From IMG/VR virus record IMGVR_UViG_3300034062_007872, positions 1 through 51,207 of that record: a stretch of 51,207 nt of DNA; one strand, written 5' to 3'. Under the pieces are notes generated by a model that was not told where the DNA came from, made no database searches, and saw only the letters and a list, made by a program, of their open reading frames with translations. Positions 1,117 through 20,476 of this stretch are shown here, piece by piece. The translations under genes were made by a program, and so were the position numbers. Source of the stretch: a virus. Positions within the stretch are counted from its first letter, which is position 1; each line of letters opens with the position of its first letter.

Positions 1117-1118
1117 TC

Positions 1119-2135: not shown

Positions 2136-2204
2136 GTACTGTCCATTACTCTACTCCATTAGACCAATTCTCGTTTAACATAACAAAGTAGTTCACCTAG
2201 ACTC

Positions 2205-2918
2205 ATGAATTTCAATCCTGATACAGTTTTCATTATTGGTGTTGGTGGAACTGGCGGTTATCTCGCTGCCCCCATTGCCAGGCTTGTTGCTTATCATCAG
2301 GCAACCCAAGATGCCAAGGTTGTTTTTATTGATGGTGATGAATTTGAGGAGCATAATGCTACTCGTCAAATTGTCGGACCATCGCAAATTGGTCTGAACA
2401 AGGCCAAGGCAATGGTTGATTTTTGTTCTTTCCAGGGCCTTAACAACGTTGAATGTAAAGAAGACTTTATTTCAATGACTTCTTTTATTCCTCTTTTGAA
2501 TCAATCAAGGACTCCTCTTATTATCTGTTCGGTCGATAATGATGCAACCCGACATGATGTAATCGCGGCAATTGAAATGGCCTGTAAGGAAAAAGATTTC
2601 TTCTTTATTACTCCGGGTAATTCTGATGGAATCGAGGATGTGAAGGGCCAGACACTCTGGTTTGGTCGGTGTAATGGCGAAAGTGTAGGAATGGATCCGA
2701 CTCTTGTTTATCCCAACATTAAAGAGCCGATTGATAGCGTCCCACATAAAGGATCTTGCGCTCTTAATGCCCCCTCTCGCCCTCAATTGATTTCGGCCAA
2801 CTTTATGGCCGCCGCGATTACTCTCACTGTGATTCAGAACTTCCTTGATGGTATGCTGGATCATAAAAAAAGCGGCATGTTCTTCAATGGCCGCACCCTG
2901 ATCACCTCTATTTCCTGA
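2205..2918 (+). CDS. ThiF/E1-like adenylating enzyme
   Basis: 237 residues. Residues 8-20 form the ThiF nucleotide-binding loop (FIIGVGGTGGYL). It is followed by Asp43-Gly-Asp45, then Asn51-Ala-Thr-Arg54-Gln55, the arginine finger and Asn of E1 enzymes, and by the lysines of IGLNKAKAM. These enzymes adenylate the C-terminal Gly of a ubiquitin-like or ThiS-like protein. The end (GSCALNAP...QLISANFMAAA) resembles PRTRC ThiF proteins. It is shorter than eukaryotic E1 and has no ubiquitin-fold domain, as usual in bacteria. A promoter-like stretch with TTTAACAT lies in the 69-base gap before it, so it may be transcribed separately as well. Confidence 0.85.
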   Translation: MNFNPDTVFIIGVGGTGGYLAAPIARLVAYHQATQDAKVVFIDGDEFEEHNATRQIVGPSQIGLNKAKAMVDFCSFQGLNNVECKEDFISMTSFIPLLNQSRTPLIICSVDNDATRHDVIAAIEMACKEKDFFFITPGNSDGIEDVKGQTLWFGRCNGESVGMDPTLVYPNIKEPIDSVPHKGSCALNAPSRPQLISANFMAAAITLTVIQNFLDGMLDHKKSGMFFNGRTLITSIS

Positions 2919-3313: not shown

Positions 3314-3335
3314 TCGGGGGCAAGGGAGCCCCCGA
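3314..3335 (+). other. Perfect 8 bp hairpin in the leader
   Basis: TCGGGGGC (3314-3321) and GCCCCCGA (3328-3335) form a perfect GC-rich stem with a 6-base loop. It lies between the candidate promoter and the start codon and lacks a T-run, so it may be an attenuator, an mRNA-stabilising hairpin or a weak terminator of the upstream operon. Confidence 0.5.
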
Positions 3336-3361
3336 AATTCACTCTCAATCATTTTCTTATT

Positions 3362-3640
3362 ATGGATCGCGCCACAAACATCCGAGAATTTCTCCAGGCA
3401 TCCGGGTCTACGATTGTTAATGTCCGTTTTAGGAAAAAGAACGGCGAAATGCGTAGCCTGTGTTTCAATCCCAAGGATCGTCAGGAAATTGTGGGGGGAT
3501 CCCCTTCTACCACCAATCCTGATATTATCCGGGTAAGAGATTTCAAGATTGCAAAAGAGCAAGGCGAAAAGGCCTGGCGGTCTTTTGATGTCAATCGGGT
3601 CATCAGCATCACTTCCAACGGTCAACGTTTTGAGTTCTGA
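3362..3640 (+). CDS. Small SH3-like phage protein (DUF2693-like)
   Basis: 92 residues with the start at 3362; an in-frame ATG at 3305 is rejected because it would place the GC-rich hairpin inside the gene. The pattern is an N-terminal helix (ATNIREFLQAS), a strand pair around FRKKNGEMRSLCFNP, and near the end AWRSFDVNRVISI. It resembles the small SH3-like barrel proteins common in phages and annotated DUF2693, whose hallmark is a Trp-Arg-Ser-Phe followed by Val/Ile-Ser-Ile. Function unknown in the family. The next gene starts 3 bases after its stop. Confidence 0.65.
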   Translation: MDRATNIREFLQASGSTIVNVRFRKKNGEMRSLCFNPKDRQEIVGGSPSTTNPDIIRVRDFKIAKEQGEKAWRSFDVNRVISITSNGQRFEF

Positions 3641-3643
3641 ATC

Positions 3644-4015
3644 ATGAACCAACAAATCAAACAACAATGGATTGAGGCTCTCCGCAGCGGAGAGTATTCA
3701 CAAGCACAGGAAGAACTTAGAGTTGGTGATTCTTTCTGTTGTCTTGGGGTTTTGTGTGATCTTTATGGTAAGAGCAAAGGAGCCAATTTCTGGAAAGAAA
3801 CAACGCAAAAATCTGGTTATTATTATTTTGAATCGCTTCCAGAACAATATGAGTATGGAACTCTCCCCATAAATGTCTCTGAATGGGCCGGTTTGGGTGG
3901 AATAGATATTCCTGTTGTGGAATACGGTGAACAAAAAACGGCCATTTCCGATCTAAACGACAAAGAACAACTCTCATTTAACCAAATCGCGGCTATTATT
4001 GAGGAACAACTTTAA
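3644..4015 (+). CDS. Conserved phage protein with FCCLGVLCDLY motif
   Basis: 123 residues. It has the features of a widespread phage family of unknown function: N-terminal WIEALRSGEYSQAQEELR, then SFCCLGVLCDLYG, a middle LP.NVSEWAGL, and a C-terminal LNDKEQLSFNQIAAIIEEQ. The SFxxIAxxIE ending and the Cys-Cys motif are both present, so it looks intact. It ends immediately before a strong terminator. Confidence 0.75.
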   Translation: MNQQIKQQWIEALRSGEYSQAQEELRVGDSFCCLGVLCDLYGKSKGANFWKETTQKSGYYYFESLPEQYEYGTLPINVSEWAGLGGIDIPVVEYGEQKTAISDLNDKEQLSFNQIAAIIEEQL

Positions 4016-4023
4016 CTTAATTA

Positions 4024-4047
4024 CCCCTCTTTATGAGGGGCTTTTTT
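4024..4047 (+). terminator. Strong intrinsic terminator
   Basis: CCCCTC (4024-4029) and GAGGGG (4035-4040) form a stem with a 5-base loop, followed by C and six T. It closes the operon that starts upstream. Confidence 0.85.
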
Positions 4048-4050
4048 GTA

Positions 4051-4057
4051 CTAAATA
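4051..4057 (+). promoter_or_regulatory. T4-type late promoter motif CTAAATA
   Basis: CTAAATA directly follows the terminator and lies 22 bases before the start codon at 4079. It matches the late-promoter variant seen elsewhere in the window in front of virion genes (24528, 38827) and suggests that the two genes behind it are expressed late. Confidence 0.55.
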
Positions 4058-4078
4058 ATCAATAAACAATCAAAAAAC

Positions 4079-4387
4079 ATGGAAGAAATTGTTTCTTTTC
4101 TAATCAATGAAGGTTACGCCGATGATTATAGGGCCGCATCTAAAATTTATGAGGTCATGAGCGACGAATGGTTGGATTTTATTCTTTGTGAGGAACCTAG
4201 ATCCAAGGCCGACAGAGAATTTTTGGCCCAAAGAAGGAGAAATTTTCAAACGGGCAAAGGGCCTAATTGGCCTTATGGTGATAAAAAGGCCAATTATGAT
4301 TCGCCATCAACTGGTATAGTTGCAACCGGAGATTCTCAGTCTGCCCCCACTAGAAAAAAGAAAAAACTAACTTTTGAAGTAAGATGA
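4079..4387 (+). CDS. EGYA...MSDEWL-domain protein, probable late gene
   Basis: 102 residues. The N-terminal 40 residues (FLINEGYADDYRAASKIYEVMSDEWLDFIL) are clearly related to a segment of the minus-strand gene 23950-24489 (LVSEGYVNNYDSAACILEAMSDEWLAGIL). That gene sits in an operon of probable packaged proteins. The rest is basic and low complexity, ending TRKKKKLTFEVR. A CTAAATA late promoter precedes it, and its stop overlaps the next start (ATGA). Likely a virion-associated or internal protein; function unknown. Confidence 0.65.
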   Translation: MEEIVSFLINEGYADDYRAASKIYEVMSDEWLDFILCEEPRSKADREFLAQRRRNFQTGKGPNWPYGDKKANYDSPSTGIVATGDSQSAPTRKKKKLTFEVR

Positions 4388-4825: not shown

Positions 4826-4987
4826 ATGTTACCCCAAGAGCTTAGGTCCGTTCTTAAAGAAATTGAACACGAGAATCGCCGCATAGAACTCAGGAAAACC
4901 TTTTTGGAAAAAGGTGTAAAGTTTTATGACAAAGATGGCTGGGGGTATATCAAGAATGGTATAAAAAATTATGTTGAACGAACATGA
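4826..4987 (+). CDS. Small unknown protein
   Basis: 53 residues: MLPQELRSVLKEIEHENRR, then a short segment FYDKDGWGYIKNGIKNYVE. Helical N-terminus and an aromatic, glycine-containing C-terminal part. No family recognised. Its TGA overlaps the ATG of the first LRV gene (ATGA), which argues that it is translated and coupled to it. Confidence 0.55.
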   Translation: MLPQELRSVLKEIEHENRRIELRKTFLEKGVKFYDKDGWGYIKNGIKNYVERT

Positions 4988-5247
4988 AACACGAACAAAA
5001 ACTAAAAGCCGCAAGAGATCCAAACACTTCTCCTGAAATTCTAGAAACTCTGGCGTCTGATGGAAACTGGAATGTTCGCTACTGGGTTGCACGAAACCCG
5101 AATACATCCATAAAAATTCTAGAACTCTTGGCGACTGATGAAGATTATATTGTTCGATCATGGGTTCCACACCATCCAAATAGAACAAAAATTATAGAAA
5201 GGCTAGTTCTCATGACAGACTACAAACTGTCCACTGCCGCCAACTAA
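4984..5247 (+). CDS. LRV-repeat protein, paralogue 1
   Basis: 87 residues: an 11-residue N-cap (MKHEQKLKAAR), about two and a half 26-residue repeats of the form NPNTSxxxLExLAtDxxxxVRxxVAR, and a C-cap (NRTKIIERLVLMT). This is the leucine-rich-variant (LRV) repeat, an all-helical solenoid related to HEAT/armadillo repeats. The FeS-binding Cys cluster of the Azotobacter founder protein is absent. The solenoid suggests protein binding; the target is unknown. One of six paralogues in 9.2 kb. Confidence 0.8.
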   Translation: MKHEQKLKAARDPNTSPEILETLASDGNWNVRYWVARNPNTSIKILELLATDEDYIVRSWVPHHPNRTKIIERLVLMTDYKLSTAAN

Positions 5248-5295
5248 ACCAACCAATCACCAACTAAACTACGTCTAGTTGATCGTTCTTTTGTC

Positions 5296-6054
5296 ATGCA
5301 AATCACTTCTGATATTCTCAACAAGCCGTCCATCAAAAAGCATTATGGTCAAAAGATTGTTTCGGGTTATCCTGAGGCCCTGATTGATTTTGAAAAGACG
5401 GTTTTTACCAAAAATATCGAGACTCTTAAAAAAATTTGGCCGTATCTCTCTTTTGATCTGATCCTTAATAATATTGATTGGCTTGAGATCCTGCCACTGA
5501 ACCTTACTGATACTCATAATGATTGGCTGATCCAAAATATCAAGCCCCAATCATTCCTTAATATGATCAACCAGCACTACACCAAAGTTGGTTGTATTTC
5601 TATTTCTACTTTTATCAAAGACACATTTGAGCAGCTTGAAAAACTAATCAAACAGAAGGTAACAGTAGATCCCCCTAAAAGGTGGAGGTTGATTGATTTT
5701 CATGATCACGTTTCTTATCTTTATCTAAAGAACAATACCAAAAACAATAAACTTCAGACAATTATTGATCCTTATAAAAAGGAAGGTTATCTACTGTCCC
5801 AGCCAAAAGAGTCCATTGAGATCATTATCTGGGGTAAAAAGGTAAAGAATTGTGTGGCATCTTATGAGGAGCGAATTGGCGAATCTATCTGGATTTTCTT
5901 TATTGAAAAGGACGGGGTTCCTCTTTATACTGTAGAAACTGATATGGAACATTATCACATCAAACAGATTGTTTCTCAATGTAATGGTTCTGTTGATCAG
6001 GCCGGTAGAGATTTTGCCCAGGCCCTTATTATGAAGGCGGTTGGTAAGAAGTGA
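5296..6054 (+). CDS. PcfJ-like protein
   Basis: 252 residues. The C-terminal 90 residues show the PcfJ-like signature: EGYLLSQPKESIEIIIWGKKVKNCVASYEERI, followed by IWIFFIEKDGVPLYTVET and KQIVSQCNGSV. That is a conserved Cys in NCV-x-SY, a TvE strand and a Q-x-x-N/CNG turn. PcfJ was named from an enterococcal conjugative plasmid; similar proteins are common in phages and mobile elements, with no firmly established activity. The N-terminal 110 residues are helical and unrelated to anything I recognise. The LRV gene starts 8 bases after its stop. Confidence 0.65.
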   Translation: MQITSDILNKPSIKKHYGQKIVSGYPEALIDFEKTVFTKNIETLKKIWPYLSFDLILNNIDWLEILPLNLTDTHNDWLIQNIKPQSFLNMINQHYTKVGCISISTFIKDTFEQLEKLIKQKVTVDPPKRWRLIDFHDHVSYLYLKNNTKNNKLQTIIDPYKKEGYLLSQPKESIEIIIWGKKVKNCVASYEERIGESIWIFFIEKDGVPLYTVETDMEHYHIKQIVSQCNGSVDQAGRDFAQALIMKAVGKK

Positions 6055-6062
6055 ATATTATT

Positions 6063-6647
6063 ATGGGGTATAATCGAAAAGCAATTGACGCACAAGATCC
6101 AAACACATCATCAAAAACCCTAGAAATTCTGGCAACTGATAAAAATGATTATGTTCGCGCCCACGTTGCAGAAAACCCGAATACTCCACAAAACACCCTA
6201 GAACTTCTGGCGACTGATAAAGATTCTGATATTCGCTACAAGGTTGCACGAAACCCAAACACCCCACCAGAATCCCTAAAACTCCTTGCAACTGATAAAG
6301 ATTCTGATATTCGCTACTGTGTTGCACGAAACCCAAACATGCCACAAGAATCCCTAGAACTCCTTGCAACTGATAAAGATTATCGTGTTCGCTATTGGGT
6401 TGCAAAAAACCCAAACACGCCACAAGAATCCCTAGAACTCCTTGCAACTGATAAAGATTCTAGTGTTCGCGCCTGTGCTGCAAACAACTCAAACATCACA
6501 CCAGAAACTCTCCAACAACTAGCGACTGATATGAGTTGTTTTGTTCGTGATATTGTTGCACAAAACCCAAACCGAACCGAACTTATCGAAAGACTGGTTC
6601 TTATGACAAATTATCAACTGGCACAGGCCGCCGACCCAACCACATAA
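6063..6647 (+). CDS. LRV-repeat protein, paralogue 2 (six repeats)
   Basis: 194 residues from the ATG at 6063. An earlier in-frame GTG at 6051 is rejected because the ATG gives exactly the 11-residue N-cap seen in paralogues 1 and 4. Six 26-residue repeats (NPNTPQESLELLATDKDSxxRYxVAR) are followed by the shared C-cap NPNRTELIERLVLMT. At the DNA level neighbouring 78 bp units are almost identical, which shows recent repeat duplication. A scaffold or decoy that binds a protein is plausible; nothing shows an enzyme. Confidence 0.8.
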   Translation: MGYNRKAIDAQDPNTSSKTLEILATDKNDYVRAHVAENPNTPQNTLELLATDKDSDIRYKVARNPNTPPESLKLLATDKDSDIRYCVARNPNMPQESLELLATDKDYRVRYWVAKNPNTPQESLELLATDKDSSVRACAANNSNITPETLQQLATDMSCFVRDIVAQNPNRTELIERLVLMTNYQLAQAADPTT

Positions 6648-6685
6648 TCCTCGCCTATTATTATCAAGTAATCGAAATCAACACC

Positions 6686-6991
6686 ATGCTCACCGAAATC
6701 GAACAAAAAAAAATCTGGGTTGTTGGCAGCATCGAAAAATTGGCCGCACTTGGGTATTTTAAGAATGTTTCTCTTAAGGTAGAAGAGGATTTTATTGAGG
6801 AATATTGGCGAATCGACGACAATCGCCATGAAATTATGGATAGTGGCGAGGAAACCTTCAAGATTATCCTAGAACTTTATCCAGAATTGTGTTTGGATGA
6901 AGTCACTGAAGTTTTTGATCTCCTGGCCGCTTTTAAGAATAGTCGAACCAAGGTGTTTGTCCGGGGGATGCAGAAGATCTGTTTGGTGTAA
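6686..6991 (+). CDS. Unknown small acidic protein
   Basis: 101 residues, starting MLTEIEQKKIWVVGSIEKLAALGYF, with two predicted helical halves around a His/Asp-rich centre (YWRIDDNRHEIMDSGEE). It has a basic end (RTKVFVRGMQKICLV). No family recognised. It stands alone between a 38-base and a 22-base gap. Confidence 0.6.
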   Translation: MLTEIEQKKIWVVGSIEKLAALGYFKNVSLKVEEDFIEEYWRIDDNRHEIMDSGEETFKIILELYPELCLDEVTEVFDLLAAFKNSRTKVFVRGMQKICLV

Positions 6992-7013
6992 ATAGTTCTA
7001 AAACATTAAAACA

Positions 7014-7133
7014 ATGAACACTCCCAATTGGCAACACAACTCTCAAAAAAAGAAGAAAACCAGAGGAATTTCTAAGGGTAAGATTAAGGCCCGGAAACAG
7101 GTTCTTAAGTCTCTTAAGTCGAAGTTTATGTGA
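7014..7133 (+). CDS. Very small basic protein (39 residues)
   Basis: The reading frame from 7014 to the TGA at 7131 encodes 39 residues of which about a third are Lys or Arg (SQKKKKTRGISKGKIKARK, then QVLKSLKSKFM). It fills a gap between two genes and ends 4 bases before the next start. Such short basic proteins could bind nucleic acid or the host ribosome/polymerase; function unknown. Confidence 0.5.
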   Translation: MNTPNWQHNSQKKKKTRGISKGKIKARKQVLKSLKSKFM

Positions 7134-7137
7134 CACT

Positions 7138-7488
7138 ATGAATCATCCCAAAACAGAGGCCGGTCTAAGAGCCAGAATTAAGGCTCTAACAACTCTTATG
7201 AGAACTGAAAGAGAAGAGAGGAAAAGAGAAAGAAAAGAGAGCGAGAACTATTACTATCCAAACTATCCGAACTTTACAATGATTAAATTTCTGCGTTCAT
7301 TATTCTCAAGAACTCGCCCAGAAACTGATGAGAAAGCCTTGATTTTAATTGAGTTGACATGTAGTACTGAGTGGTGGAGTAAAGTAGAGAAAATGGCCGA
7401 AGAATGTGAATCCTCTCCGGCTAGAATTATCGACGCTGCTGTTAATTTATTGGATCAAGAGCTACGCGAAATAGACTCTAGCGCCTGA
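7138..7488 (+). CDS. Unknown protein with coiled-coil N-terminus
   Basis: 116 residues. Residues 8-36 form a charged helix (ARIKALTTLMRTEREERKRER), followed by a Tyr/Asn-Pro linker (YYYPNYPNF). The C-terminal domain, from about residue 60, contains two helices (STEWWSKVEKMAEEC; PARIIDAAVNLLDQELREI) that look like a small ribbon-helix-helix or CopG-like unit. This last reading is tentative. Confidence 0.6.
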   Translation: MNHPKTEAGLRARIKALTTLMRTEREERKRERKESENYYYPNYPNFTMIKFLRSLFSRTRPETDEKALILIELTCSTEWWSKVEKMAEECESSPARIIDAAVNLLDQELREIDSSA

Positions 7489-7509
7489 CTAGACCTACCA
7501 ATTCTCTTT

Positions 7510-7530
7510 TATAATTATCCCAGTTCAACC
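7510..7530 (+). promoter_or_regulatory. -10 TATAAT with downstream AGTTCAACC leader motif
   Basis: TATAAT (7510-7515) is followed after 6 bases by AGTTCAACC (7522-7530). The same arrangement, TATAAT-like hexamer then (A)GTCAACC near the expected transcript start, is seen before at least five other genes. An upstream AGACCTACC (7491-7499) is shared with the promoter region of the LRV gene at 13853. Confidence 0.6.
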
Positions 7531-7538
7531 AACTCATT

Positions 7539-7748
7539 ATGGAATTGACTAAAAGGTATCTTTGGAAAAATCTTTCTGAAGACGGTTTAATTAAAGATCC
7601 TATGCACCCTTGGGGAGAATGTTTTTTTAACCAGTGGGGCTATAAGACAAAAGAGGAAGCAATCGCAGAATTTCAGCGTCTTATGGATATTGGTCTAAAC
7701 CCACCGACCTGTATTCTTATTGAAGAATACTCCCGTTTTTCAAACTAA
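7539..7748 (+). CDS. Small unknown protein
   Basis: 69 residues, rich in aromatic residues (RYLWKNLSEDGLI, HPWGECFFNQWGYKTKEEAIAEF). The YKTKEEAIAEFQRLMDIGL stretch, a glycine-aromatic turn followed by a helix, is typical of small phage proteins of unknown function. It has its own promoter and is followed after 8 bases by the next small gene. Confidence 0.65.
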   Translation: MELTKRYLWKNLSEDGLIKDPMHPWGECFFNQWGYKTKEEAIAEFQRLMDIGLNPPTCILIEEYSRFSN

Positions 7749-7756
7749 TTAAAATT

Positions 7757-7924
7757 ATGAATTTTGAACTCCATTTGATCAGTTTTCCTAATTACGCTGA
7801 ACTGATTGTAACCGGATCTAATTTTTCCATTGAGTCTGGCCCTCTTAATGAACAAGAACAAATTGAACTGGCCAAACAATTGAGAGAAATCGCTGATCAA
7901 TTGTATGTGGAAAAAACTGTGTGA
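7757..7924 (+). CDS. Small unknown protein (55 residues)
   Basis: Reading frame from ATG 7757 to TGA 7922, encoding a strand-rich N-terminus (NFELHLISFPNYAELIVTG) and a C-terminal helix (EQEQIELAKQLREIADQL). The frame lies 8 bases behind the preceding gene and just before a terminator, as expected for the last gene of an operon. Confidence 0.55.
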   Translation: MNFELHLISFPNYAELIVTGSNFSIESGPLNEQEQIELAKQLREIADQLYVEKTV

Positions 7925-7936
7925 CACCTGATTAAC

Positions 7937-7992
7937 TGGCACAAGGGACCTACCACGGGTCCCTTTTTCTCTTTATAATACAAGAGTCAACC
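7937..7992 (+). promoter_or_regulatory. TGGCACAA box, terminator hairpin and promoter in one module
   Basis: TGGCACAA at 7937-7944, terminator stem AAGGGACC (7943-7950) / GGTCCCTT (7958-7965) with T-run to 7968, TATAAT at 7974-7979, and AGTCAACC at 7985-7992. Box to -10 distance is 37 bases. It ends the upstream operon and starts the gene at 8004. Confidence 0.65.
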
Positions 7993-8003
7993 GCAATCAG
8001 CCA

Positions 8004-8156
8004 ATGGCCCGATCTTTCTGTCTTGCATCTGATCTTGAGACCAAAGAAATTGTTTGGTCCTGTTTCAATAATTGTTGCCAAATGATCCAGAACAATCAGC
8101 CGGTTGTTCTTTCGGCTGCCGCAATTGCCAACCATTTTGCTACTCGCTATTCTTGA
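8004..8156 (+). CDS. Small Cys-containing unknown protein (50 residues)
   Basis: MARSFCLASDLETKEIVWSC, then FNNCCQMIQNNQPVVLSAAAIANHFATRYS. Four Cys in the first half (residues 6, 20, 24, 25) could bind metal. The upstream module provides a promoter with the AGTCAACC leader. Its last bases are part of a 23 bp repeat found again at 8573. Confidence 0.6.
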   Translation: MARSFCLASDLETKEIVWSCFNNCCQMIQNNQPVVLSAAAIANHFATRYS

Positions 8157-8158
8157 GG
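8136..8158 (+). repeat. 23 bp direct repeat, copy 1
   Basis: 22 of 23 bases match 8573-8595. The two copies bracket the LRV gene at 8163-8564. Confidence 0.75.
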
Positions 8159-8162
8159 TTTT

Positions 8163-8564
8163 ATGTTTTACTTTTTTCCTGATAAAGAGACTTTGCAAAA
8201 AGGATCTGCAGCAGAAAACCCTAGCACGAAACCGGAAACGCTAGAACAACTAGCGAGCGATGAACATCCTTATGTTCGCCGTTGCGTTGCAAGAAACCCT
8301 AACACATCACAAAAAGTGTTACAACTCTTGGCGTGTGATGGAGATTGGGTAGTTCGCAATTATGTTGCCGAAAACCCGAACAAAAACTATGTTATCGAAA
8401 GACTTCTCGATATGACGGAAAAGGTTTGTGGAAACAAAGAAACTCCTATTGAATCTTTTGATACCTTTGAGTTTTATACATTCTTGAACGTGGCTAGTGT
8501 GGAAGAACTAGAAGGCAATTATCTTAAACCAGAAACCCTGACCCAAATTCTTACAACAAAATGA
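8163..8564 (+). CDS. LRV-repeat protein, paralogue 3, with C-terminal extension
   Basis: 133 residues. An atypical N-cap (MFYFFPDKETLQKGSAAEN) leads into two LRV repeats (KPETLEQLASDEHPYVRRCVAR; SQKVLQLLACDGDWVVRNYVAE) and a C-cap (NPNKNYVIERLLDMT). About 45 residues absent from the other paralogues follow (TFEFYTFLNVASVEELEG...). The gene lies between two copies of a 23 bp repeat, suggesting arrival by recombination. Confidence 0.75.
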   Translation: MFYFFPDKETLQKGSAAENPSTKPETLEQLASDEHPYVRRCVARNPNTSQKVLQLLACDGDWVVRNYVAENPNKNYVIERLLDMTEKVCGNKETPIESFDTFEFYTFLNVASVEELEGNYLKPETLTQILTTK

Positions 8565-8593
8565 CAAACATCTTTGCTATTCGCTATTCTTGA
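8561..8593 (+). other. Ten-codon reading frame at a recombination scar
   Basis: ATG at 8561 overlaps the LRV stop and the frame reads MTNIFAIRYS before TGA. Its start matches the start of the gene at 8917 (MTNIIPIR) and its end matches the end of the gene at 8004 (FATRYS). It looks like a joined remnant of two genes rather than a functional peptide. Confidence 0.5.
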
Positions 8594-8595
8594 GG
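8573..8595 (+). repeat. 23 bp direct repeat, copy 2
   Basis: Partner of 8136-8158, one mismatch, 437 bases downstream. Confidence 0.75.
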
Positions 8596-8600
8596 CTCTC

Positions 8601-8906
8601 ATGAAAAAAACAACCATTAACATTACAGACGAACTTCTTAATTTGGATGAAAATGATCCAAATTATCCTGAAAAAAGAATGAGGCTGATGGTTCAATATC
8701 TGCAAAGATATATGAAAACCTATGATCAACAAGTTGGTTATGAGAATTACCAGGATTCTACTTTTATTGATGACGTTTTGTATGGTCTAGGAGTTGCACT
8801 GAATCCCAAAGAACATCAATTTGCTAATGGTTTCGATGTGTGGAAGAAGAAACTTATTGATCACATTAACTCGACATTGCGGCAGGATCTCAAACCACTA
8901 TTCTAA
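8601..8906 (+). CDS. Unknown protein
   Basis: 101 residues from ATG 8601; a longer frame starting at a TTG (8574) is rejected because it lies in the repeated scar sequence. Sequence features: MKKTTINITDELL, acidic DENDPNYPEKRMRLMVQYLQRYMKTY, and a C-terminal helix (FDVWKKKLIDHINSTLRQDL). No family recognised. Confidence 0.65.
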   Translation: MKKTTINITDELLNLDENDPNYPEKRMRLMVQYLQRYMKTYDQQVGYENYQDSTFIDDVLYGLGVALNPKEHQFANGFDVWKKKLIDHINSTLRQDLKPLF

Positions 8907-8916
8907 TTACTCATAA

Positions 8917-9099
8917 ATGACAAACATCATTCCTATCCGCATGATTAACACCAACGAACTGGATCACGAAATTCTGATGAACTCGGCCCAATCATGGATG
9001 AATCATTATAATTTTCTCCTTTCCCTTTCTATCTGGGATGACCAACAGCGTAGGGCATTTCAGGGTGAGTTTAATTTCAATAAGGTTTATGATGTTTGA
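8917..9099 (+). CDS. Small unknown protein
   Basis: 60 residues, 10 bases after the previous stop. MTNIIPIRMINTNELDHEIL followed by an aromatic stretch with three Trp (SWMNHYNFLLSLSIWDD). The last segment is FQGEFNFNKVYDV. No family recognised. The LRV gene starts 2 bases after its stop. Confidence 0.6.
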   Translation: MTNIIPIRMINTNELDHEILMNSAQSWMNHYNFLLSLSIWDDQQRRAFQGEFNFNKVYDV

Positions 9100-9101
9100 T
9101 T

Positions 9102-9590
9102 ATGAATTACCAACAAAAAGAGACCGCTGCAAACAACTCAAACACCACACCAGAAACTCTCCAACAACTAGCGACTGATAAAGATTCTTATGTTCGCTAC
9201 AAGGTTGCACGAAACCCAAACACCCCACCAGAAACTCTCCAACAACTAGCGACTGATAAAGATTCTTATGTTCGCTACGCCGTTGCACGAAACCCAAACA
9301 CACCACAAGAAACCCTACAACTCCTTGCAACAGATAAATATTCTAGTGTTCGCTACTGGGTTGCACAAGATCCAAACACGCCACCAGAAACCCTAGAAAT
9401 TCTGGCGACTGATAAAGATTTTGGTGTTCGCTACGCCGTTGCACAAAACCCAAACACACCACAAGAAACCCTACAACTCCTTGCAACAGATAAATATTCT
9501 AGTGTTCGCTACTGGGTTGCACAAAACCCAAACCGAACCGAACTTATAGAGAGGCTGGTTCTTATGACCAACCACAAACAGGACCAATGA
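9102..9590 (+). CDS. LRV-repeat protein, paralogue 4 (five repeats)
   Basis: 162 residues from ATG 9102, chosen over ATG 9096 because it restores the common 11-residue N-cap (MNYQQKETAAN). Repeats NPNTPPETLQQLATDKDSYVRYxVAR follow, then the C-cap NPNRTELIERLVLMT. Two adjacent 78 bp units near 9140-9290 are nearly identical, and a block of about 70 bases near 9300 recurs 156 bases later (two units). This gene therefore grew by duplication of one- and two-repeat blocks. It overlaps the next LRV gene by ATGA. Confidence 0.8.
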   Translation: MNYQQKETAANNSNTTPETLQQLATDKDSYVRYKVARNPNTPPETLQQLATDKDSYVRYAVARNPNTPQETLQLLATDKYSSVRYWVAQDPNTPPETLEILATDKDFGVRYAVAQNPNTPQETLQLLATDKYSSVRYWVAQNPNRTELIERLVLMTNHKQDQ

Positions 9591-9844
9591 ATAATAAACA
9601 GAAGGGCAAGGCATCAAAAAATCTAAAAACGCCACCAGAAATTCTACATCAATTAGCAATTGATGCGGCCCCTTGGATTCGTTACCAAGCAGCCCAAAAT
9701 CCAAACACTTCAATAAAAACCCTAGAAATCTTGGCGGTTGATAAATGTCAACATGTCCGCCATAATGTTTTATTAAATCCAAATAAAACACAACTCATTG
9801 AAAGACTACCAATAAGCAACACTTATCAGTCAGACCCACCATAG
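9587..9844 (+). CDS. LRV-repeat protein, paralogue 5
   Basis: 85 residues, start overlapping the previous stop (ATGA). N-cap MNNKQKGKASK, about two and a half repeats (TPPEILHQLAIDAAPWIRYQAAQ; TSIKTLEILAVDKCQHVRHNVLL) and C-cap NPNKTQLIERL. More diverged than paralogues 2 and 4. Translational coupling with paralogue 4 suggests the two are made in fixed ratio and may work together. Confidence 0.8.
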   Translation: MNNKQKGKASKNLKTPPEILHQLAIDAAPWIRYQAAQNPNTSIKTLEILAVDKCQHVRHNVLLNPNKTQLIERLPISNTYQSDPP

Positions 9845-9859
9845 GCCCCACCAACCTGC

Positions 9860-9876
9860 TACAATAATCTCAGTTA
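9860..9876 (+). promoter_or_regulatory. Extended -10 promoter of the helicase gene
   Basis: TGCTACAAT (9857-9865) is an extended -10 (TGn-TACAAT) and is followed by CAGTTAAGG in the place of the AGTCAACC leader motif. The helicase starts at 9890. Confidence 0.5.
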
Positions 9877-9889
9877 AGGGAAACCCCTA

Positions 9890-11374
9890 ATGCAACTCTC
9901 ACCCCAACAGACCACCGCTGTTACCGCTGTTGCCACCACTAACCAGTCTATTGTCCTAGAAGCGGTTGCGGGTAGTGGAAAAACAACCACTCTTATTGAA
10001 ATGCTTAAGGCCGCCGAAGGGACCGTTGCTTTTTGTGCATTCAATAAGGCGATTGCCCAGGAGATTGATTATAAGGTTTCCAAGAAAAATCTAGGGGATA
10101 AAGTAAAGGTAGGTACGGTTCATTCTTACGGATTTGGCGCAATCCGCCGCTCTATTTCTCGCGTAAAAGTAGACGGAAATAAACTGCGCAATCTGGCCCA
10201 AGACGAGTTTAATGGAGAATGGTTTAATCTCCGTCAATTTGTTACATCTGCCGTGGCAATGGCCAAAGAAGTCGGCATTGCCGCATGTGTGGATGATGAT
10301 AAAGAACAGTGGGAGCAAATGATCAATCATTATGATCTGTGGGATAATCTCCCTACGAATTATAGCGAAGAAACCGCGATTGATGCGGCCCAGTATCTCC
10401 TGAAGGCCAGCAATAACCTCAGGCAGATTATTGATTTTTCTGACATGATCTATATGCCGATTCTCAACAAAATGAAGATTTGGCAGTATGATAACATTTT
10501 TCTCGATGAGGCCCAGGATACTAATGGCCCTAGAAGGGAATTGGTCAAGATGATGCTAAAGCCTAATGGCAGACTTATTGCTGTTGGAGATCCCCACCAG
10601 GCAATTTATGGCTTTACCGGTGCTGATCACCAGGCCCTGGATAATATCAAACAAGAATTTAAGGCAGTTACAATGCCTCTTTCTGTTACATTCCGCTGCC
10701 CTAAAAAGGTTGTAGAAGTGGCCAATCGTTGGGTTTCACATATCGAGGCCGCAGAAACCGCCCCACAGGGTATTGTTGATTCTTGTGAACTGCAAGATGT
10801 TTATAAACTTGCATCCAAGGATGATGCAGTTATTTGTAGAAATACCAAACCACTTGTGGAGCTTGCCTATTCCCTTATCCGCAGATCTATTCCTTGTAAG
10901 GTAGAAGGAAGAGCAATTGGTGAGGGTCTGGTTAAACTTGCCCAACGTTGGAAAGTTAAAACCTGCGCCCAACTTCAAGATAAACTTGAACAGTGGAAAG
11001 AAAAGGAAATCATAAAGTATCAAGAAAAGGGTAATGATACCAAATGCCAAATTATCGAAGATCAGGTAGAAACCCTAATGGTGTTTATATCTGAATGCAG
11101 ATTTGATGATTCTATTTCTACTTTGGTGGAAAAAATCCGGTCTCTCTTCAATGATACCGAGGGCCAACAAAAAGCCCTTACTCTTTCTACTATTCATAAG
11201 TCCAAGGGAAGAGAATGGAATCGGGTATTTGCCCTGGGTATGGATACTTATTCTCCTAGCAAGTGGGCAAAAAAAGTATGGGAATTGACCCAGGAAGATA
11301 ACCTGTGCTATGTGCAAGTAACCAGGGCCAAGAATCATCTAACGATGGTAAATGTTCCAGAGAAGGTGAAGTGA
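9890..11374 (+). CDS. UvrD/Rep-like superfamily 1A DNA helicase
   Basis: 494 residues. Q-motif SPQQTTAV near the N-terminus, Walker A AVAGSGKTTT (residues 25-34), motif Ia around FNKAIAQEI, and motif Ic GTVHSYGFG. Walker B is LDEAQD (205-210), motif III GDPHQAIYGFTGAD (233-246), motif IV TFRCPKKVVEVANRW, motif V STIHKSKGREWNRVF and motif VI YVQVTRAKNHL. All motifs are intact, so an active ATP-dependent 3'-5' helicase is expected. It is shorter than UvrD (about 720), as usual for phage versions. A role in replication or recombination is likely. It is not the T4 Dda type. Confidence 0.9.
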   Translation: MQLSPQQTTAVTAVATTNQSIVLEAVAGSGKTTTLIEMLKAAEGTVAFCAFNKAIAQEIDYKVSKKNLGDKVKVGTVHSYGFGAIRRSISRVKVDGNKLRNLAQDEFNGEWFNLRQFVTSAVAMAKEVGIAACVDDDKEQWEQMINHYDLWDNLPTNYSEETAIDAAQYLLKASNNLRQIIDFSDMIYMPILNKMKIWQYDNIFLDEAQDTNGPRRELVKMMLKPNGRLIAVGDPHQAIYGFTGADHQALDNIKQEFKAVTMPLSVTFRCPKKVVEVANRWVSHIEAAETAPQGIVDSCELQDVYKLASKDDAVICRNTKPLVELAYSLIRRSIPCKVEGRAIGEGLVKLAQRWKVKTCAQLQDKLEQWKEKEIIKYQEKGNDTKCQIIEDQVETLMVFISECRFDDSISTLVEKIRSLFNDTEGQQKALTLSTIHKSKGREWNRVFALGMDTYSPSKWAKKVWELTQEDNLCYVQVTRAKNHLTMVNVPEKVK

Positions 11375-11390
11375 CCATGATCTCAAATCT

Positions 11391-11516
11391 TTATGACAAA
11401 TTACCTTCAATCATCTGATGAATAATTCTCCGCAGGCCTTTACGAGTACAATATTCGTCCAACAATTCCTCAATGATTTCTTCTAAGAATCCATAAGAGT
11501 CTGATACTGGCAGACC
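11391..11516 (-). pseudogene. Decayed C-terminus of an HNH endonuclease
   Basis: On the minus strand this stretch encodes 41 residues (starting GLPVSDSYGFLEEII, then ELLDEYCTRKGLRRIIHQM) before TAA. They align with the last 38 residues of the HNH protein at 12083-12685 (GLSISNEFDFINGIL, DQLIDDYSNQKGLKRIIHQ). A TAA stands directly upstream in frame and no start codon precedes the match, so it is a remnant. It was found by translating the gap between the helicase and the next gene. Confidence 0.75.
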
Positions 11517-11538
11517 TTATGGTGTTCACTTTTTAAAC

Positions 11539-11580
11539 TGACACATTCCATACCCACTGACCCATCAAGTCCATTATCAT
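11539..11580 (+). promoter_or_regulatory. Variant TGACACA box with TATCAT -10
   Basis: TGACACAT (11539-11546) and TATCAT (11575-11580) repeat, with one base less spacing, the TGGCACAA/-10 arrangement; the gene at 11604 follows. Confidence 0.35.
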
Positions 11581-11603
11581 AACAAGGTAATCAAGCAAAT
11601 CAA

Positions 11604-11798
11604 ATGACTTCTCACGAACTCGCTCAAAGACTTCTGAAACTTCCCAATCTCGATGTTATGGTTGAAGAAACCTGTGGATGTCTTCTAGAAGTATCAAGTA
11701 CGTTTTCTCGTGAAATCAATGAATTTGATGAGGAAATGTGCGGTGATGCCGAAGGCCGAGTTGGAGAGGAAGTCATTGTAATCGCTATCGGATCGTGA
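11604..11798 (+). CDS. Small acidic unknown phage protein
   Basis: 64 residues: MTSHELAQRLLKLPNLDVMVE, then an acidic centre, then GEEVIVIAIGS. This resembles the many small phage proteins that begin with a helix T-x-x-E-L-x-x-x-L-x-x-L-P, continue with D-x-x-V and end with an isoleucine/valine strand. Their function is unknown. The next gene begins 4 bases later. Confidence 0.65.
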   Translation: MTSHELAQRLLKLPNLDVMVEETCGCLLEVSSTFSREINEFDEEMCGDAEGRVGEEVIVIAIGS

Positions 11799-11802
11799 CA
11801 AA

Positions 11803-12114
11803 ATGAGCAATCCTATTAAAATGACTTTGGCCGAATTGCTTGAATGTAATCCACTCGATGTTGCAAAATGGGCAATTAGAGAAGGCGACAAACTGTGCGC
11901 CTGGCAAGAGTCCACTGAAAAAGATCAAATTTCTGTTTTTTATAAAAGAGAAAGGGCACAAAGAGAGGCTCAATTCAGGGCCAACAAATATAAAACTAAA
12001 ATATTGTTGTATGAACTTTCCTTTTATGTAAATGGGGGACATATATTTGGGAGACGAAGAGATATTCCTCTTTGGCTTCCGGTTATGAGTTATTGTTCAG
12101 AATCTGATGAATAA
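11803..12114 (+). CDS. Unknown protein overlapping the HNH gene end
   Basis: 103 residues, start MSNPIKMTLAELLECNPLDVAKWAIREG, then a Lys/Arg-rich middle (FYKRERAQREAQFRANKYK) and an aromatic C-terminal part. No family recognised. Its last 32 bases overlap the 3' end of the convergent HNH gene, and the shared bases TCTGATGAATAATTCT recur in the remnant at 11413-11430. The endonuclease fragment may therefore have supplied this gene with its C-terminus. Confidence 0.6.
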   Translation: MSNPIKMTLAELLECNPLDVAKWAIREGDKLCAWQESTEKDQISVFYKRERAQREAQFRANKYKTKILLYELSFYVNGGHIFGRRRDIPLWLPVMSYCSESDE

Positions 12115-12685
12115 TTCTTTTTAATCCTTTCTGGTTACTATAATCATCAATTAGTTGGTCTAGGATACCATTAATAAAATCAAATTCATTACTTATGGAT
12201 AATCCTTTTATTTGGGCAGCAGTATAAAGAATCTTCAACTTTTCGATAATATTATCTGAAACAAGAAGTTCTCTTTCGGCCTGTTGTATGACTTTTTTTC
12301 TTCGACCCGGTTTGCTTCTTTTTTCACCACCATCTTTTCTGACTCCCCCGGCCTTATGTCCGTCTCTAAAGACTTTTTTTTCTATGGTGGTTATGTTATG
12401 AATAGAATTGTCTGCCCTATTTTCTGTTTTATGAACAATATATCTTTTCCGTAGATGTTTTGGAATAAAGGCCTTGGCAACGATTATGTGGACGTTTAGG
12501 CATCTTTTGATTCCAGATTTACCACATAACATTACTTTTTTGTATTGGGTTCTTGTGCCAGACCAATAGGTTCCCATTTTCCTTAGGCCACGATTCTTTT
12601 GTTTATTAGAGTAAATGTTACCATCAATATCTACAAAATATCCACTAAAGTCTTCTAGGCCCTCAATTGTAGAAATTTCTTTCAT
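12083..12685 (-). CDS. HNH homing endonuclease with NUMOD4-like N-terminus
   Basis: 200 residues. The N-terminus (IEGLEDFSGYFVDIDGNIYS) is NUMOD4-like. The middle, VHIIVAKAFIPKHLRKRYIVHKT then ENRADNSIHNITTIE, is an HNH_3 nuclease core with His and Asn in place. A basic linker (KRSKPGRRKK) and a helical C-terminus follow. Such enzymes cut DNA at one site and drive their own copying. It lies on the opposite strand to the genes around it and has a CTAAATA late-type promoter 30 bases upstream. It is not inside an intron that I can recognise, so it is free-standing. Confidence 0.85.
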   Translation of the reverse strand: MKEISTIEGLEDFSGYFVDIDGNIYSNKQKNRGLRKMGTYWSGTRTQYKKVMLCGKSGIKRCLNVHIIVAKAFIPKHLRKRYIVHKTENRADNSIHNITTIEKKVFRDGHKAGGVRKDGGEKRSKPGRRKKVIQQAERELLVSDNIIEKLKILYTAAQIKGLSISNEFDFINGILDQLIDDYSNQKGLKRIIHQILNNNS

Positions 12686-12714
12686 TTTAGGTGTCTAATA
12701 AACCTCTAGAAGGT

Positions 12715-12721
12715 ATTTAGA
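12715..12721 (-). promoter_or_regulatory. Late-type promoter motif CTAAATA for the HNH gene
   Basis: CTAAATA on the minus strand, 30 bases before the HNH start codon; same motif as at 24513-24519. Confidence 0.45.
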
Positions 12722-12898
12722 TTATATGACGGTTTATTTTTTATAGGAATAAATGCCTATTTTGGGATTTTGGATAGTATCCAAAAGTATCCTTATGTTT
12801 TTGTGATTATGTTTATAAGAATTTTATTGGGAATTTTTTATTGTTTATTCTGGATTTTATGAATTTTTTTAGGTTTTATGTAAAATTTTTTAGATCTT

Positions 12899-13070
12899 AT
12901 AAGAATTTTTGTTGTTTTTTATAAGAATTTTTGTTGTTTTTTATAAGAATTTTTGTTGTTTTTATAAGAATTTTTGTTGTTTTTATAAGAATTTTTGTTG
13001 TTTTTATAAGAATTTTTGTTGTTTTTATAAGAATTTTTGTTGTTTTTATAAGAATTTTTGTTGTTTTTTA
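12899..13070. repeat. Tandem array of eight 21-22 bp A+T-rich repeats
   Basis: Unit ATAAGAATTTTTGTTGTTTTT, present eight times with units of 21-22 bases differing only in the length of the last T-run. Looser versions (ATAAGAATTTTATTGGG) occur at about 12815. An open frame across it encodes a YKNFCCF repeat and is not a real gene. The 21 bp phase equals two helical turns, so it could be a bent-DNA or protein-binding array such as an origin or partition site. Confidence 0.9.
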
Positions 13071-13852
13071 TGTAGCATTATTGGCCCGCAAAATATAAAC
13101 AAAACATAAAGACTTTATAAAAAACAGAAAACCCCATAAAACCCCACAACAACCCATAAACGTATAATTCCACCAGAGGCTCCTAGGAGGCCCAGGAAGG
13201 CCCCTCTAAAACCCTAAACGGTTTCTGATACGTCAGAGCAAATTAAAGGCCTTCTAGGTGCCTTATCCAATTCCATAACTGTCCACCATTTCAACAATTT
13301 TTCCATAAGGGTGCTATCTTATAAAGGTGGTCGAGAGATCACATTCTATCGTTATTGCTAGATAAGGAAATTCTTTATGAGTTTCCTTTTTATTCGTAGG
13401 ATAGCAAAGTTGGACCAATGCGCCCACCTTACGGCATCAACGGTTTGTTTAAAAGAGTTCAACTCTCTTTATACCGAGTAAGTGGGAGATCGCGGGATCG
13501 TAGCCCGCTCCTACGATTTTAAGAACATAAAATACTAAATAATACAGTGAACAAATTGTTATTGTAATAAAGATCCCATAAAACCTCGGTTTCGGGCAAG
13601 TCTCCAAAGCAATTAACAATTATCTTTCGTTTATTTTGAACCTCTTAGTTGCTCCTACGGGATAAAGCATTAAAGTTCATAAGAAACAAAGAGCGTATTA
13701 TTTCAATTGAATAACAGGTTAGCCCCAGTTCTCAAAAATGAGAAACCTTTAGGGGTATTTTCAGTATGGGTGGACAGTTTATAAAGTGTCATAAGTACCT
13801 AACCAGACCTACCTAATTCTGTTTAAGATTAGATCAGTTCAGTATTTTTCTT
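13071..13852. other. Hairpin-rich region without a gene (about 780 bases)
   Basis: No convincing reading frame. Strong local structures: AGAGG/CCTCT enclosing smaller stems (13171-13207), TCTGA-TACG-TCAGA (near 13228), AAGGTGG/CCACCTT closing about 100 bases (13325-13432), AAGGAAA/TTTCCTT inside it (13365-13390), CGGT/ACCG around 13440-13475, and GCGGG/CCCGC overlapping ATCGTAG/CTACGAT (13494-13519). The density suggests a structured RNA. CTAAATA at 13535-13541 may be a late promoter. I cannot match it to tRNA, tmRNA, RNase P or a group I intron core. Confidence 0.4.
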
Positions 13853-14191
13853 ATGCTTGGCATTAATTATTATGAGATCCTTCGGTCCGATGCAATAGAT
13901 CCAAAAACACCAGTAGAAGAACTAGAGAAACTGGCGAACAGTGAATTTTATAATATCCGGTATTATGTTGCACAAAACCCTAATGTTACAGTAGAGATTC
14001 TGGAAAAATTGAGTAAAGATTATTGGCAAGTTGTTTATGCTGTTGCGTCAAATCCCACTGTAACTGACGAAATCCTAAGGAAATTAGTTCAACATAATAA
14101 TTCTATTGTTCGTAAGAAAGCGGCCGAACATCCTAATGCCTCAGAGATAACAAAAAGACTTTATCTTATGACAATTGCTAGAGTGTCATAA
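13853..14191 (+). CDS. LRV-repeat protein, paralogue 6 (most diverged)
   Basis: 112 residues: N-cap MLGINYYEILRSDAI, three repeats (TPVEELEKLANSEFYNIRYYVAQ; TVEILEKLSKDYWQVVYAVAS; TDEILRKLVQHNNSIVRKKAAE) and C-cap HPNASEITKRLYLMT. The repeats are not near-identical at DNA level, so this copy is older or under different selection. Its promoter region (AGACCTACCTAATTCTGTTTAAGAT, 13807-13831) resembles the one at 7491-7515. Confidence 0.75.
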   Translation: MLGINYYEILRSDAIDPKTPVEELEKLANSEFYNIRYYVAQNPNVTVEILEKLSKDYWQVVYAVASNPTVTDEILRKLVQHNNSIVRKKAAEHPNASEITKRLYLMTIARVS

Positions 14192-18136: not shown

Positions 18137-18158
18137 TAAAGCTCGCCAGTGGCATCCA

Positions 18159-18184
18159 AACCTGCTACAATTAACGAGTCAACC
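18159..18184 (+). promoter_or_regulatory. Extended -10 promoter of the AbrB-like gene
   Basis: TGC-TACAAT (18163-18171) followed by AGTCAACC (18177-18184); TCGCCA 17 bases upstream of the hexamer is a weak -35. Confidence 0.6.
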
Positions 18185-18199
18185 AAGGGAACGCCTCCC

Positions 18200-20420: not shown

Positions 20421-20476
20421 CCACCAAAAACCCGAATCAATTTACCTTTTATAAAAAAAATTCCGCCGGGTAAAAA
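20421..20476. repeat. 56 bp direct repeat, copy 1
   Basis: Identical over 56 bases to 20509-20564; each copy contains TTTACC and GGTAAA in inverted orientation and is preceded by CATAATTACATAAA. Together with the surrounding A/C-rich sequence it fills the 440-base gap 20203-20642. Confidence 0.85.

Follow-up and report, generated by a model that had tools for sequence, protein, structure and literature searches.

The 51 kb viral fragment analysed here over its whole length (the window) belongs to a freshwater relative of T4-like cyanophages and carries six genes for leucine rich repeat variant (LRV) proteins, which raises the question of how such a family changes in a phage genome and what its products might do. 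The first-pass annotation had described six genes of two to six 26-residue repeats sharing an N-cap and the C-cap ERLVLMT. All six ORFs were indeed present where it had placed them, each protein scored above the 21.6-bit cut-off of the Pfam LRV profile (PF01816), and the unit numbers ran from two to six plus a C-cap as proposed (Table 1). The units are 26 residues (78 bp) long and in register, the exception being the 25-residue second unit of g6, the most divergent of the six proteins. The shared caps held up less well: each gene closes with a C-cap, but exact ERLVLMT was found in only three of the six, and the N-cap shows weak conservation and is short, at 9 residues in all but g3 and g6, where it is longer.

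Table 1. The six LRV genes of the window with their repeat units and caps (positions are those of the window).
Gene	Product	Position	Strand	Units and caps	Profile score or model
g1	LRV protein, 87 aa	4984..5247	+	short N-cap; 2 units (5011-5088, 5089-5166); C-cap ERLVLMT	Pfam LRV 42.3 bits
g2	LRV protein, 194 aa	6063..6647	+	6 units (6090-6557); C-cap ERLVLMT	Pfam LRV 120 bits; AlphaFold2 model
g3	LRV protein, 133 aa	8163..8564	+	2 units (8211-8288, 8289-8366); C-cap ERLLDMT; own C-terminal tail	Pfam LRV 35.9 bits
g4	LRV protein, 162 aa	9102..9590	+	5 units (9129-9518); C-cap ERLVLMT	Pfam LRV 117.9 bits
g5	LRV protein, 85 aa	9587..9844	+	2 units (9614-9691, 9692-9769); divergent C-cap ERLPISN	Pfam LRV 25.0 bits
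g6	LRV protein, 112 aa	13853..14191	+	3 units (13892-13969; 13970-14044, 25 aa; 14045-14122); C-cap KRLYLMT	Pfam LRV 27.6 bits, LRV_2 35.3 bits

The six genes do not form a single block, since genes of other kinds, among them a PcfJ-like and a UvrD-like helicase gene, stand between them; the end of g4 and the start of g5 overlap by 4 bases, and the identical overlap is found in the related contig L028. The PcfJ-like gene, located between g1 and g2, has a counterpart of 91% identity in L028. A scan of the viral contigs with this gene matched L028 only, and a profile comparison with the LRV-fused proteins L061, L062 and L015 gave an E value of 0.51 on shallow alignments; the PcfJ-like neighbour was therefore rejected as a general LRV link.

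An AlphaFold2 model of g2 (mean pLDDT 96) showed a solenoid of two-helix units in which helix B spans unit positions 20-28. In structural comparisons (Foldseek was also used) the top matches of this model were alphaRep binders in complexes (Z 16.1 and 16.0), and it aligned with 1LRV at a Z of 13.9 and an rmsd of 3.4 over 172 residues, with a 1LRV sequence match at E 5.5e-18. The best BFVD fold matches bear the name 'Leucine rich repeat variant' and belong to uncultured Caudovirales phages in UniProt. On this modelling the LRV proteins of the window are predicted to fold as alpha-solenoids of paired helices A and B, of which the two-unit members may offer too little surface for an extensive interface. 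No fused effector domain was detected by Pfam in nine phage LRV proteins.

How the arrays change was judged from DNA identity between units. The first-pass annotation had held that neighbouring units of g2 and g4 are almost identical in DNA, that the family expands by duplication of 78 bp units, and that repeat number is changing now. Near-identical units do occur, as the third and fifth units of g4 agree at 77 of 78 bases (99%) and g4 contains a 100-base tract that recurs at lag 156 with one mismatch, but these two units are one unit apart, and true neighbours reach 90% at best (g4.1/g4.2), followed by g2.3/g2.4 and g2.4/g2.5 at about 86-87%; most remaining unit pairs in the window lie at 45-80%. 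The identity of g4.3 and g4.5 is above that expected from their shared protein sequence (mean 77%, maximum 91% in 5000 draws), as is that of g2.3 and g2.4 (87% observed versus an expected maximum of 79.5%), and a 41-base exact tract common to g2 and g4 indicates that gene conversion is present. In 34 related viral loci, which are metagenome-assembled contigs in which repeats may be wrongly joined (L037, for instance, links regions that lie far apart in one genome) and whose unit calls in some cases include a cap (the automatic caller takes the g2 C-cap as a seventh unit), identity of at least 95% was seen in just 2 of 362 pairs of adjacent units and 3 of 254 lag-2 pairs. Pure unit duplication was rejected as the main engine on these counts, which weakens the proposed expansion by 78 bp steps, and because near-identical adjacent pairs are so rare, most array change is ascribed to the gain, loss and fusion of whole genes and to cassette shuffling.

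At one syntenic site, between the helicase loader gene gp59 and the ssDNA-binding protein gene gp32, six loci carry arrays of two to five LRV genes with one to nine units each, so that relatives are not alike in how many genes and repeats they have there. The cassettes B-C-D, I-P and F-G-H reappear as blocks in different arrays, and in L028 a single 7-unit gene replaces the g2 to g4 region, the 2.45 kb between g2 and g4 of the window being absent there apart from LRV sequence and one short match. LRV presence and number vary widely among records: a single record of 179.5 kb had 75 unit matches, L030 has a frameshifted LRV gene of one unit, and cyanophage B23 had no LRV match. Change is nevertheless not fast on every scale, since several near-identical contigs have identical arrays (L033/L034/L035, with 0.2% divergence and a 21-base gap between L033 and L035, and L046/L048) and the unit numbers of g5 and g6 are equal in the window and L028; the claim that repeat number is changing now is weaker for it.

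We next consider where the units vary. The variation set comprised 489 units from 108 genes of 34 non-redundant viral loci, nine duplicate or 100% identical loci (L031, L034, L035, L064, L066, L067, L048, L043 and L054) having been dropped beforehand. Entropy exceeded 3.5 bits at unit positions 2, 20, 21, 24 and 25, and positions 20, 21, 24 and 25 together with position 2 of the next unit (equivalent to 28) form one face of helix B, where Tyr, Arg, Ser and Trp are frequent. From the helix periodicity and the fold matches we infer that this face is surface-exposed. Selection was analysed in 159 nearest-neighbour unit pairs of at least 85% DNA identity, after units identical in DNA had been collapsed, which left 434 of the 489. 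The helix-B face had a pN/pS of 1.94 (locus bootstrap 1.58-2.35), a value from a counting method on related pairs, unlike a likelihood site model, and from data in which gene conversion is present; elsewhere in the unit pN/pS was 0.50 on the other side of helix B, 0.56 and 0.30 in helix A, and 0.49 and 0.85 in the loops. When the top six positions from one phage group were tested in the other, pN/pS was 1.51 and 2.21 versus 0.43 and 0.58, and the entropy profiles of the two groups correlate at 0.91. For flanking genes seven contig pairs were compared, of which six gave 0.14-0.17 and one gave 0.39. By this counting test the framework is under purifying selection and the helix-B face under diversifying selection. 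The first-pass annotation had suggested a comparison of repeat numbers in related phages and a search for positive selection on surface positions, and had seen in these genes a fast-evolving family of binding solenoids; both the selection found on one helix face and the repeat and gene numbers that differ between relatives support that view.

Variation restricted to a few codons might also be made by a diversity-generating retroelement (DGR) or other targeted mutagenesis. This is extremely unlikely, and was rejected on substitution classes and silent change: face substitutions span all six classes (AG 42, AC 35, CT 35, CG 24, GT 20, AT 14) with no adenine bias, and pS is 0.116 on the face, close to the 0.095 of the rest. 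Because silent change is not raised, the face variation is better ascribed to selection than to targeted mutation. It also seems improbable that the units are a selfish or neutral family, expanded and homogenised by recombination without an adaptive binding role. Such a family would account for the recombination, the fusion, the frameshifted one-unit gene, the shared tracts and the widely varying presence and number, but neutral drift cannot yield purifying selection on the framework together with a face pN/pS of about 2 at unraised pS, and cannot explain why two phage groups share one profile.

The best reading, in our judgement, is a DGR-free repertoire of diversified protein binders, and on the sequence comparisons and the fold model it is probable that the capped LRV alpha-solenoids of freshwater T4-like phages related to cyanophage B23 are binders of this kind, shuffled and diversified on one face. 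Purifying selection holds the two-helix framework while selection diversifies the five helix-B residues (20, 21, 24, 25 and 2 of the next unit); homologous 78-bp units would permit recombination, gene fusion, unit gain or loss and the swapping of multi-unit cassettes, each yielding new binders, and subsequent point changes on the binding face would shift specificity. The exposed face would bind protein and thereby block its partners, which would be variable proteins inside the cell; host proteins hindering infection are the likeliest candidates, and an arms race against host proteins, as the first-pass annotation had suggested, is plausible. More tentatively, a lytic phage could possess a retroelement-free, combinatorial repertoire of antibody-like binders, with dozens of LRV units per genome, cassette-shuffled, selected on a single helix face and deployed inside the cell against changing proteins of the host or of rival phages.

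We think it unlikely that the LRV proteins are phage-internal adaptors that bind replication or recombination proteins of the phage and diverge along with them. The six arrays between gp59 and gp32 could serve phage replication, Moorella phage MTATph1 has an SSB gene flanked by two LRV genes, and a DNA helicase gene of L038 is likewise flanked by LRV genes. However, the LRV genes of the window are not near replication genes of the gp59/gp32 type, cyanophage B23 does without an LRV match, and the flanking non-LRV genes are so strongly conserved that diversifying selection would not be driven by a partner among their products. Adhesins, either virion-borne or exported, that target variable cell surfaces would make good use of a hypervariable binding face, and the baseplate module also lies within the window, but a hydrophobic N-terminal stretch is absent from the six proteins (by eye), LRV proteins had no tail-family match, and the relatives' LRV genes are located in the replication region, which makes this reading very unlikely. 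The lack of a NATAAATA motif immediately ahead of any of the six genes adds weakly to this, the motif being rare across the whole window; with 7 occurrences versus a mean of 17.9 in shuffles the motif test is uninformative. Sigma-70-like sites in the window were near chance (36 versus a mean of 31.2 in shuffles) and are equally uninformative on promoter class.

Cellular LRV units were analysed in the same way, after L083 had been dropped as a duplicate of the L021 contig. Pooled pN/pS was 1.36 on the face versus 0.54 off it, with face values of 2.91 in L068, 2.44 in L069 (few changes, rest 1.58) and 2.08 in L071. The pattern is not universal in hosts, since in L072, which adjoins MoxR-DUF2201 genes, the face reached only 0.44. 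The phage proteins might be decoys or hijackers mimicking the LRV modules of cyanobacterial hosts, which stand beside genes for MoxR AAA+ and DUF2201 (metallopeptidase-VWA) proteins, and passages of PMC7159879 place MoxR-vWA pairs at the core of predicted conflict systems. In a class sample of 291 genomes, a MoxR homologue occurred in 11, LRV in 35 and both in 10 (Fisher p 1.8e-9), and 7 of the 11 MoxR loci were at most 10 kb from an LRV match on the same contig. Against this, the genomes of the sample bearing CsoS2, which we take as a marker of alpha-carboxysome, picocyanobacteria-type genomes, had a MoxR homologue in 0 of 35 cases and LRV in 3 of 35, so the likely host group would lack the host LRV-MoxR system. 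After this result the decoy reading was demoted to a weak rival, and we regard it as highly improbable. MoxR, VWA and L071-type AAA queries found no homologue at E 1e-5 among the ORFs of the 34 viral loci, the phage C-cap motif was not found in the cellular LRV ORFs scanned, and PADLOC profiles, which model defence and not counter-defence, returned no family for g2 and g4 at E 0.01. The data do not support a link between the phage LRV proteins and LRV-MoxR-DUF2201 loci of hosts; separately, the MoxR-DUF2201 gene pair with which LRV arrays associate in cyanobacteria is a host locus of interest.

If the binder repertoire is real, phages have a general route to new protein binders that needs no mutating enzyme. 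Selection would already have marked the binding face, so that the paralogues could be used as bait for variable cyanobacterial proteins and could reveal picocyanobacterial proteins not yet known as defence or takeover targets. For the design of repeat-protein binders, the arrays would also offer a natural counterpart and a stock of usable sequences.

Among known systems, 1LRV and the Pfam LRV family share with the phage proteins the repeat family by profile and the fold (Z 13.9). 1LRV is a single chain of 244 residues, whereas the phage proteins are short, come in several copies and have been shuffled as well as diversified on a single face. Azotobacter-type LRV proteins, the 1LRV orthologues, have an N-terminal iron-sulphur cysteine domain; g2 lacks it, its N-terminus being MGYNRKAID with no cysteine ahead of the first unit. 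The UniProt 'Leucine rich repeat variant' entries of uncultured Caudovirales phages show that LRV proteins of phages were already annotated, but as single proteins, with arrays, selection and mechanism not described there; a search of titles and abstract openings in open-licence PMC found no literature on LRV proteins of phages or cyanobacteria. The DGR-diversified sensors of multicellular bacteria, as passages of PMC10907252 describe them, have a diversified ligand face and partly adjoin MoxR-vWA genes, but there a reverse transcriptase writes the variation, whereas the phage LRV changes have no adenine bias. The high-internal-conservation WD40 repeats of the fungal NLRs het-d/het-e, in the account given in parts of PMC12222747, resemble the phage LRV proteins in that their units are conserved except at hypervariable sites, where selection is diversifying, and in that recombination alters unit number and order; they form the beta-propeller sensor domain of a host receptor, whereas the phage proteins are stand-alone and helical. 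The artificial, HEAT-like alphaRep proteins (PDB 7z0g, 4xl5, 3ltm, 4jw2) and the phage LRV proteins are both capped two-helix solenoids of variable unit number, and both vary at residues i, i+1, i+4, i+5 and i+8 of one helix (20, 21, 24, 25 and 28 in the phage). The alphaRep proteins are engineered and built from 31-residue units, the phage proteins occur in nature and use LRV units of 26 residues, and we do not claim common ancestry. The alphaRep variable positions listed in the relevant part of PMC3754942 are 18, 19, 22, 23 and 26, with position 30 also variable. If the LRV arrays are such a combinatorial repertoire of binders, evolution would have reached the same design as the engineers' alphaRep libraries.

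The six LRV genes of the first-pass annotation (g1-g6) are present in the window, with 2, 6, 2, 5, 2 and 3 units of 26 residues, respectively. An AlphaFold2 model of g2, made with 11 relatives (mean pLDDT 96, pTM 0.87), places helix A at unit positions 8-14 and helix B at positions 20-28, the latter extending to position 2 of the following unit; the C-cap forms a long last helix. Foldseek returned the solved LRV structure 1LRV as top match, followed by the PP2A scaffold and many alphaRep proteins (engineered repeat-protein binders), and a second structural comparison gave Z scores of 15-16 for alphaRep complexes and 13.9 for 1LRV; given that values below about 13 may be unspecific for helical repeats, the top rows alone were used. 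Across 489 units from 108 genes in 34 non-redundant viral loci, entropy reached 3.5-3.8 bits at unit positions 2, 20, 21, 24 and 25, which lie on one face of helix B as i, i+1, i+4, i+5 and i+8, and the commonest residues at these sites were Y, R, S, P and W. The selection test, comprising 159 nearest-neighbor unit pairs of at least 85% identity, showed a pN/pS of 1.94 on this face (locus bootstrap 1.58-2.35), compared with 0.50 for the opposite side of helix B, values of 0.56 and 0.30 for helix A, and 0.49 and 0.85 for the loops; for within-gene pairs the face value was 3.22 (36 pairs, 8.7 silent changes). Since the positions had first been picked from the same data, the top six were chosen in one phage group and tested in the other, yielding 1.51 and 2.21 at these positions and 0.43 and 0.58 elsewhere. 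Flanking genes on the same contigs gave 0.14-0.17 for six contig pairs, the seventh, L053/L051 (two ORFs), being higher at 0.39.

Silent change was about equal at variable codons and elsewhere (0.116 vs. 0.095), and every substitution class was seen at the variable codons; the variation is thus likely caused by selection and not by directed mutation. The arms-race reading proposed in the first-pass annotation is strengthened in its diversified-binding part. The combination of a conserved scaffold with a single diversified face, together with caps, varying unit number and numerous paralogs, fits putative protein binders, and the phage LRV proteins scanned contained no catalytic or effector domain. 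We infer that the partners would be host proteins, blocked by binding; phage-internal proteins or other targets may be the partners instead, and an explanation outside all those considered seems most improbable.

The first-pass annotation proposed that unit number is changing now through duplication of neighboring 78-bp units. Some unit pairs do exceed the DNA similarity expected from codon choice, and a 99% identical pair exists, but its members are not neighbors. At 95% identity or more there were only 2 of 362 adjacent and 3 of 254 lag-2 pairs, which weakens the case for ongoing unit duplication. Six viral loci carry an LRV array between gp59 (helicase loader) and gp32 (ssDNA-binding protein), with flanks 80-98% identical. 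The B-C-D cassette recurs in gene 3 of L029 and L032, in gene 2 of L033 and in the four-unit first gene of L045 (contig end); an I-to-P block is common to L032 and L033, and F-G-H to L029 and L046. At 96% identity, L029 and L030 share a seven-unit first gene and differ by two genes missing in L030, while at 92% identity the first gene has seven units in L029 and four in L033; the near-identical contigs L033, L034 and L035 have identical array makeup. Array makeup is thus variable, with whole genes and cassettes accounting for most of the change in number. L028, the nearest syntenic relative of the window, has the order g1', PcfJ-like gene, single 7-unit gene, g5', minus-strand gene and g6', the single LRV gene standing at the place of g2, five other ORFs, g3 and g4; of the 2.45 kb that separates g2 from g4 in the window, L028 showed nothing beyond LRV sequence and a single 88-base match. 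Unit numbers of g5 and g6 are the same in both.

The window is a virus record of 51,207 bases. Given that its gp6 is 76.6% identical to gp6 of Synechococcus phage B23 and its baseplate module is T4-like, the window comes from a relative of the T4-like cyanophages, probably of freshwater origin. B23 had no LRV match. Of 50,697 deposited phage records, Moorella phage MTATph1 was the only one with LRV relatives in tblastn, the query being g2 (E 1e-5) or an L038 protein (E 1e-3). One scan with the alignment of the six window proteins recovered 36 viral loci, where LRV genes stand mostly in runs with frequent few-base overlaps. PF01816 matched 18 of the 20 records searched, with 61 unit matches on a 100 kb record and 75 on a 179.5 kb record, the latter at no fewer than 11 places over 2 kb apart among the matches listed. 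Existing annotation already covers the LRV family and its occurrence in uncultured phages; searches of the open-licence literature on LRV in phages, solenoids or cyanobacteria yielded no description of the arrays, the selected face or the shuffling.

Features of the window and of other loci with LRV matches
Locus	Position	Feature	Makeup or relatives
Window	154-2918	JAB-domain, unknown and ThiF (E1-like) genes in a row; possible ubiquitin-like modification set in phage	weak likeness to PRTRC proteins A and ThiF; row conserved in L058, partly in L065
Window	4984, 6063, 8163, 9102, 9587, 13853 (starts)	g1-g6	
Window	9890-11374	UvrD-like helicase between g5 and g6	lacking in L028; B23 carries a close relative elsewhere
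Window	12083-12685, minus	protein that looks, by eye, like a homing endonuclease	related proteins in L028 and B23; no family matched in Pfam or NCBIfam
Window	12861-13068	21-base T-rich unit repeated in tandem about ten times, between genes	L028 has a version of the surrounding sequence at 73-75% identity
Window	18149-18601	small protein	no PHROG match
Window	20421-20591	88-base unit, two copies, upstream of gene at 20643	copies 92% alike
L011 (MTATph1)	3334-4248, 5662-6645	LRV genes on either side of single-strand DNA binding protein gene	similar to cyanophage arrays adjoining gp32
L029		gp59-gp32 site	7-1-4-5-4 units per gene
L030		gp59-gp32 site	7-1-4, one-unit gene frameshifted
L032		gp59-gp32 site	4-1-4-9-4
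L033		gp59-gp32 site	4-4-3-6-9
L039		gp59-gp32 site	4-3, second gene without usual cap
L046		gp59-gp32 site	3-4
L037	6023-6640	junction inside LRV gene; either recombination through repeats or chimeric assembly	contig matches L051 and L038 (99.5-99.8%), two places separated by about 100 kb on a single record of 179.5 kb
L038	15742-16344	phage-contig gene resembling, by eye, translation elongation factor Ts	
L074	1632-7072	host LRV-related proteins; starting domain perhaps a cyanobacterial AbrB-like domain	domain resembles, by eye, window 18149-18601 and L028 9491
L069, L072, L078, L082, L089, L092, L093		host LRV array beside MoxR AAA+ and DUF2201 metallopeptidase-VWA genes	

LRV repeats (E 1e-6) were also found in 35 of 291 genomes of one cyanobacterial class, several arrays having genes for a MoxR AAA+ protein and a DUF2201 metallopeptidase-VWA protein as neighbors. 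A MoxR homolog (E 1e-80) occurred in 11 genomes of this sample, 10 of them also with LRV (p 1.8e-9). For seven of these 11 MoxR loci (G077, G080, G138, G168, G221, G237, G278), the contig also held an LRV match no more than 10 kb away. Among the others, G230 had no LRV match, G047 and G109 had LRV on another contig, and in G282 the contigs end; outside the sample, G020 (two MoxR genes) and G021 (one) likewise had LRV within 10 kb of MoxR. Host and phage units have correlated entropy profiles (r 0.91), and the face pN/pS of host units was 1.36 when pooled and 0.44 in array L072. None of the 35 genomes bearing the alpha-carboxysome marker CsoS2 had a MoxR homolog and three had LRV (G052, G200, G234), which counts against a direct phage link.

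MoxR-vWA pairs are described as central to predicted conflict systems (PMC7159879), and the LRV-adjacent MoxR-DUF2201 pair may be of this type. For the repeats themselves, the optimized alphaRep library has variable positions 18, 19, 22, 23, 26 and 30 (PMC3754942), the first five of which are spaced as are the variable positions of the phage LRV units.
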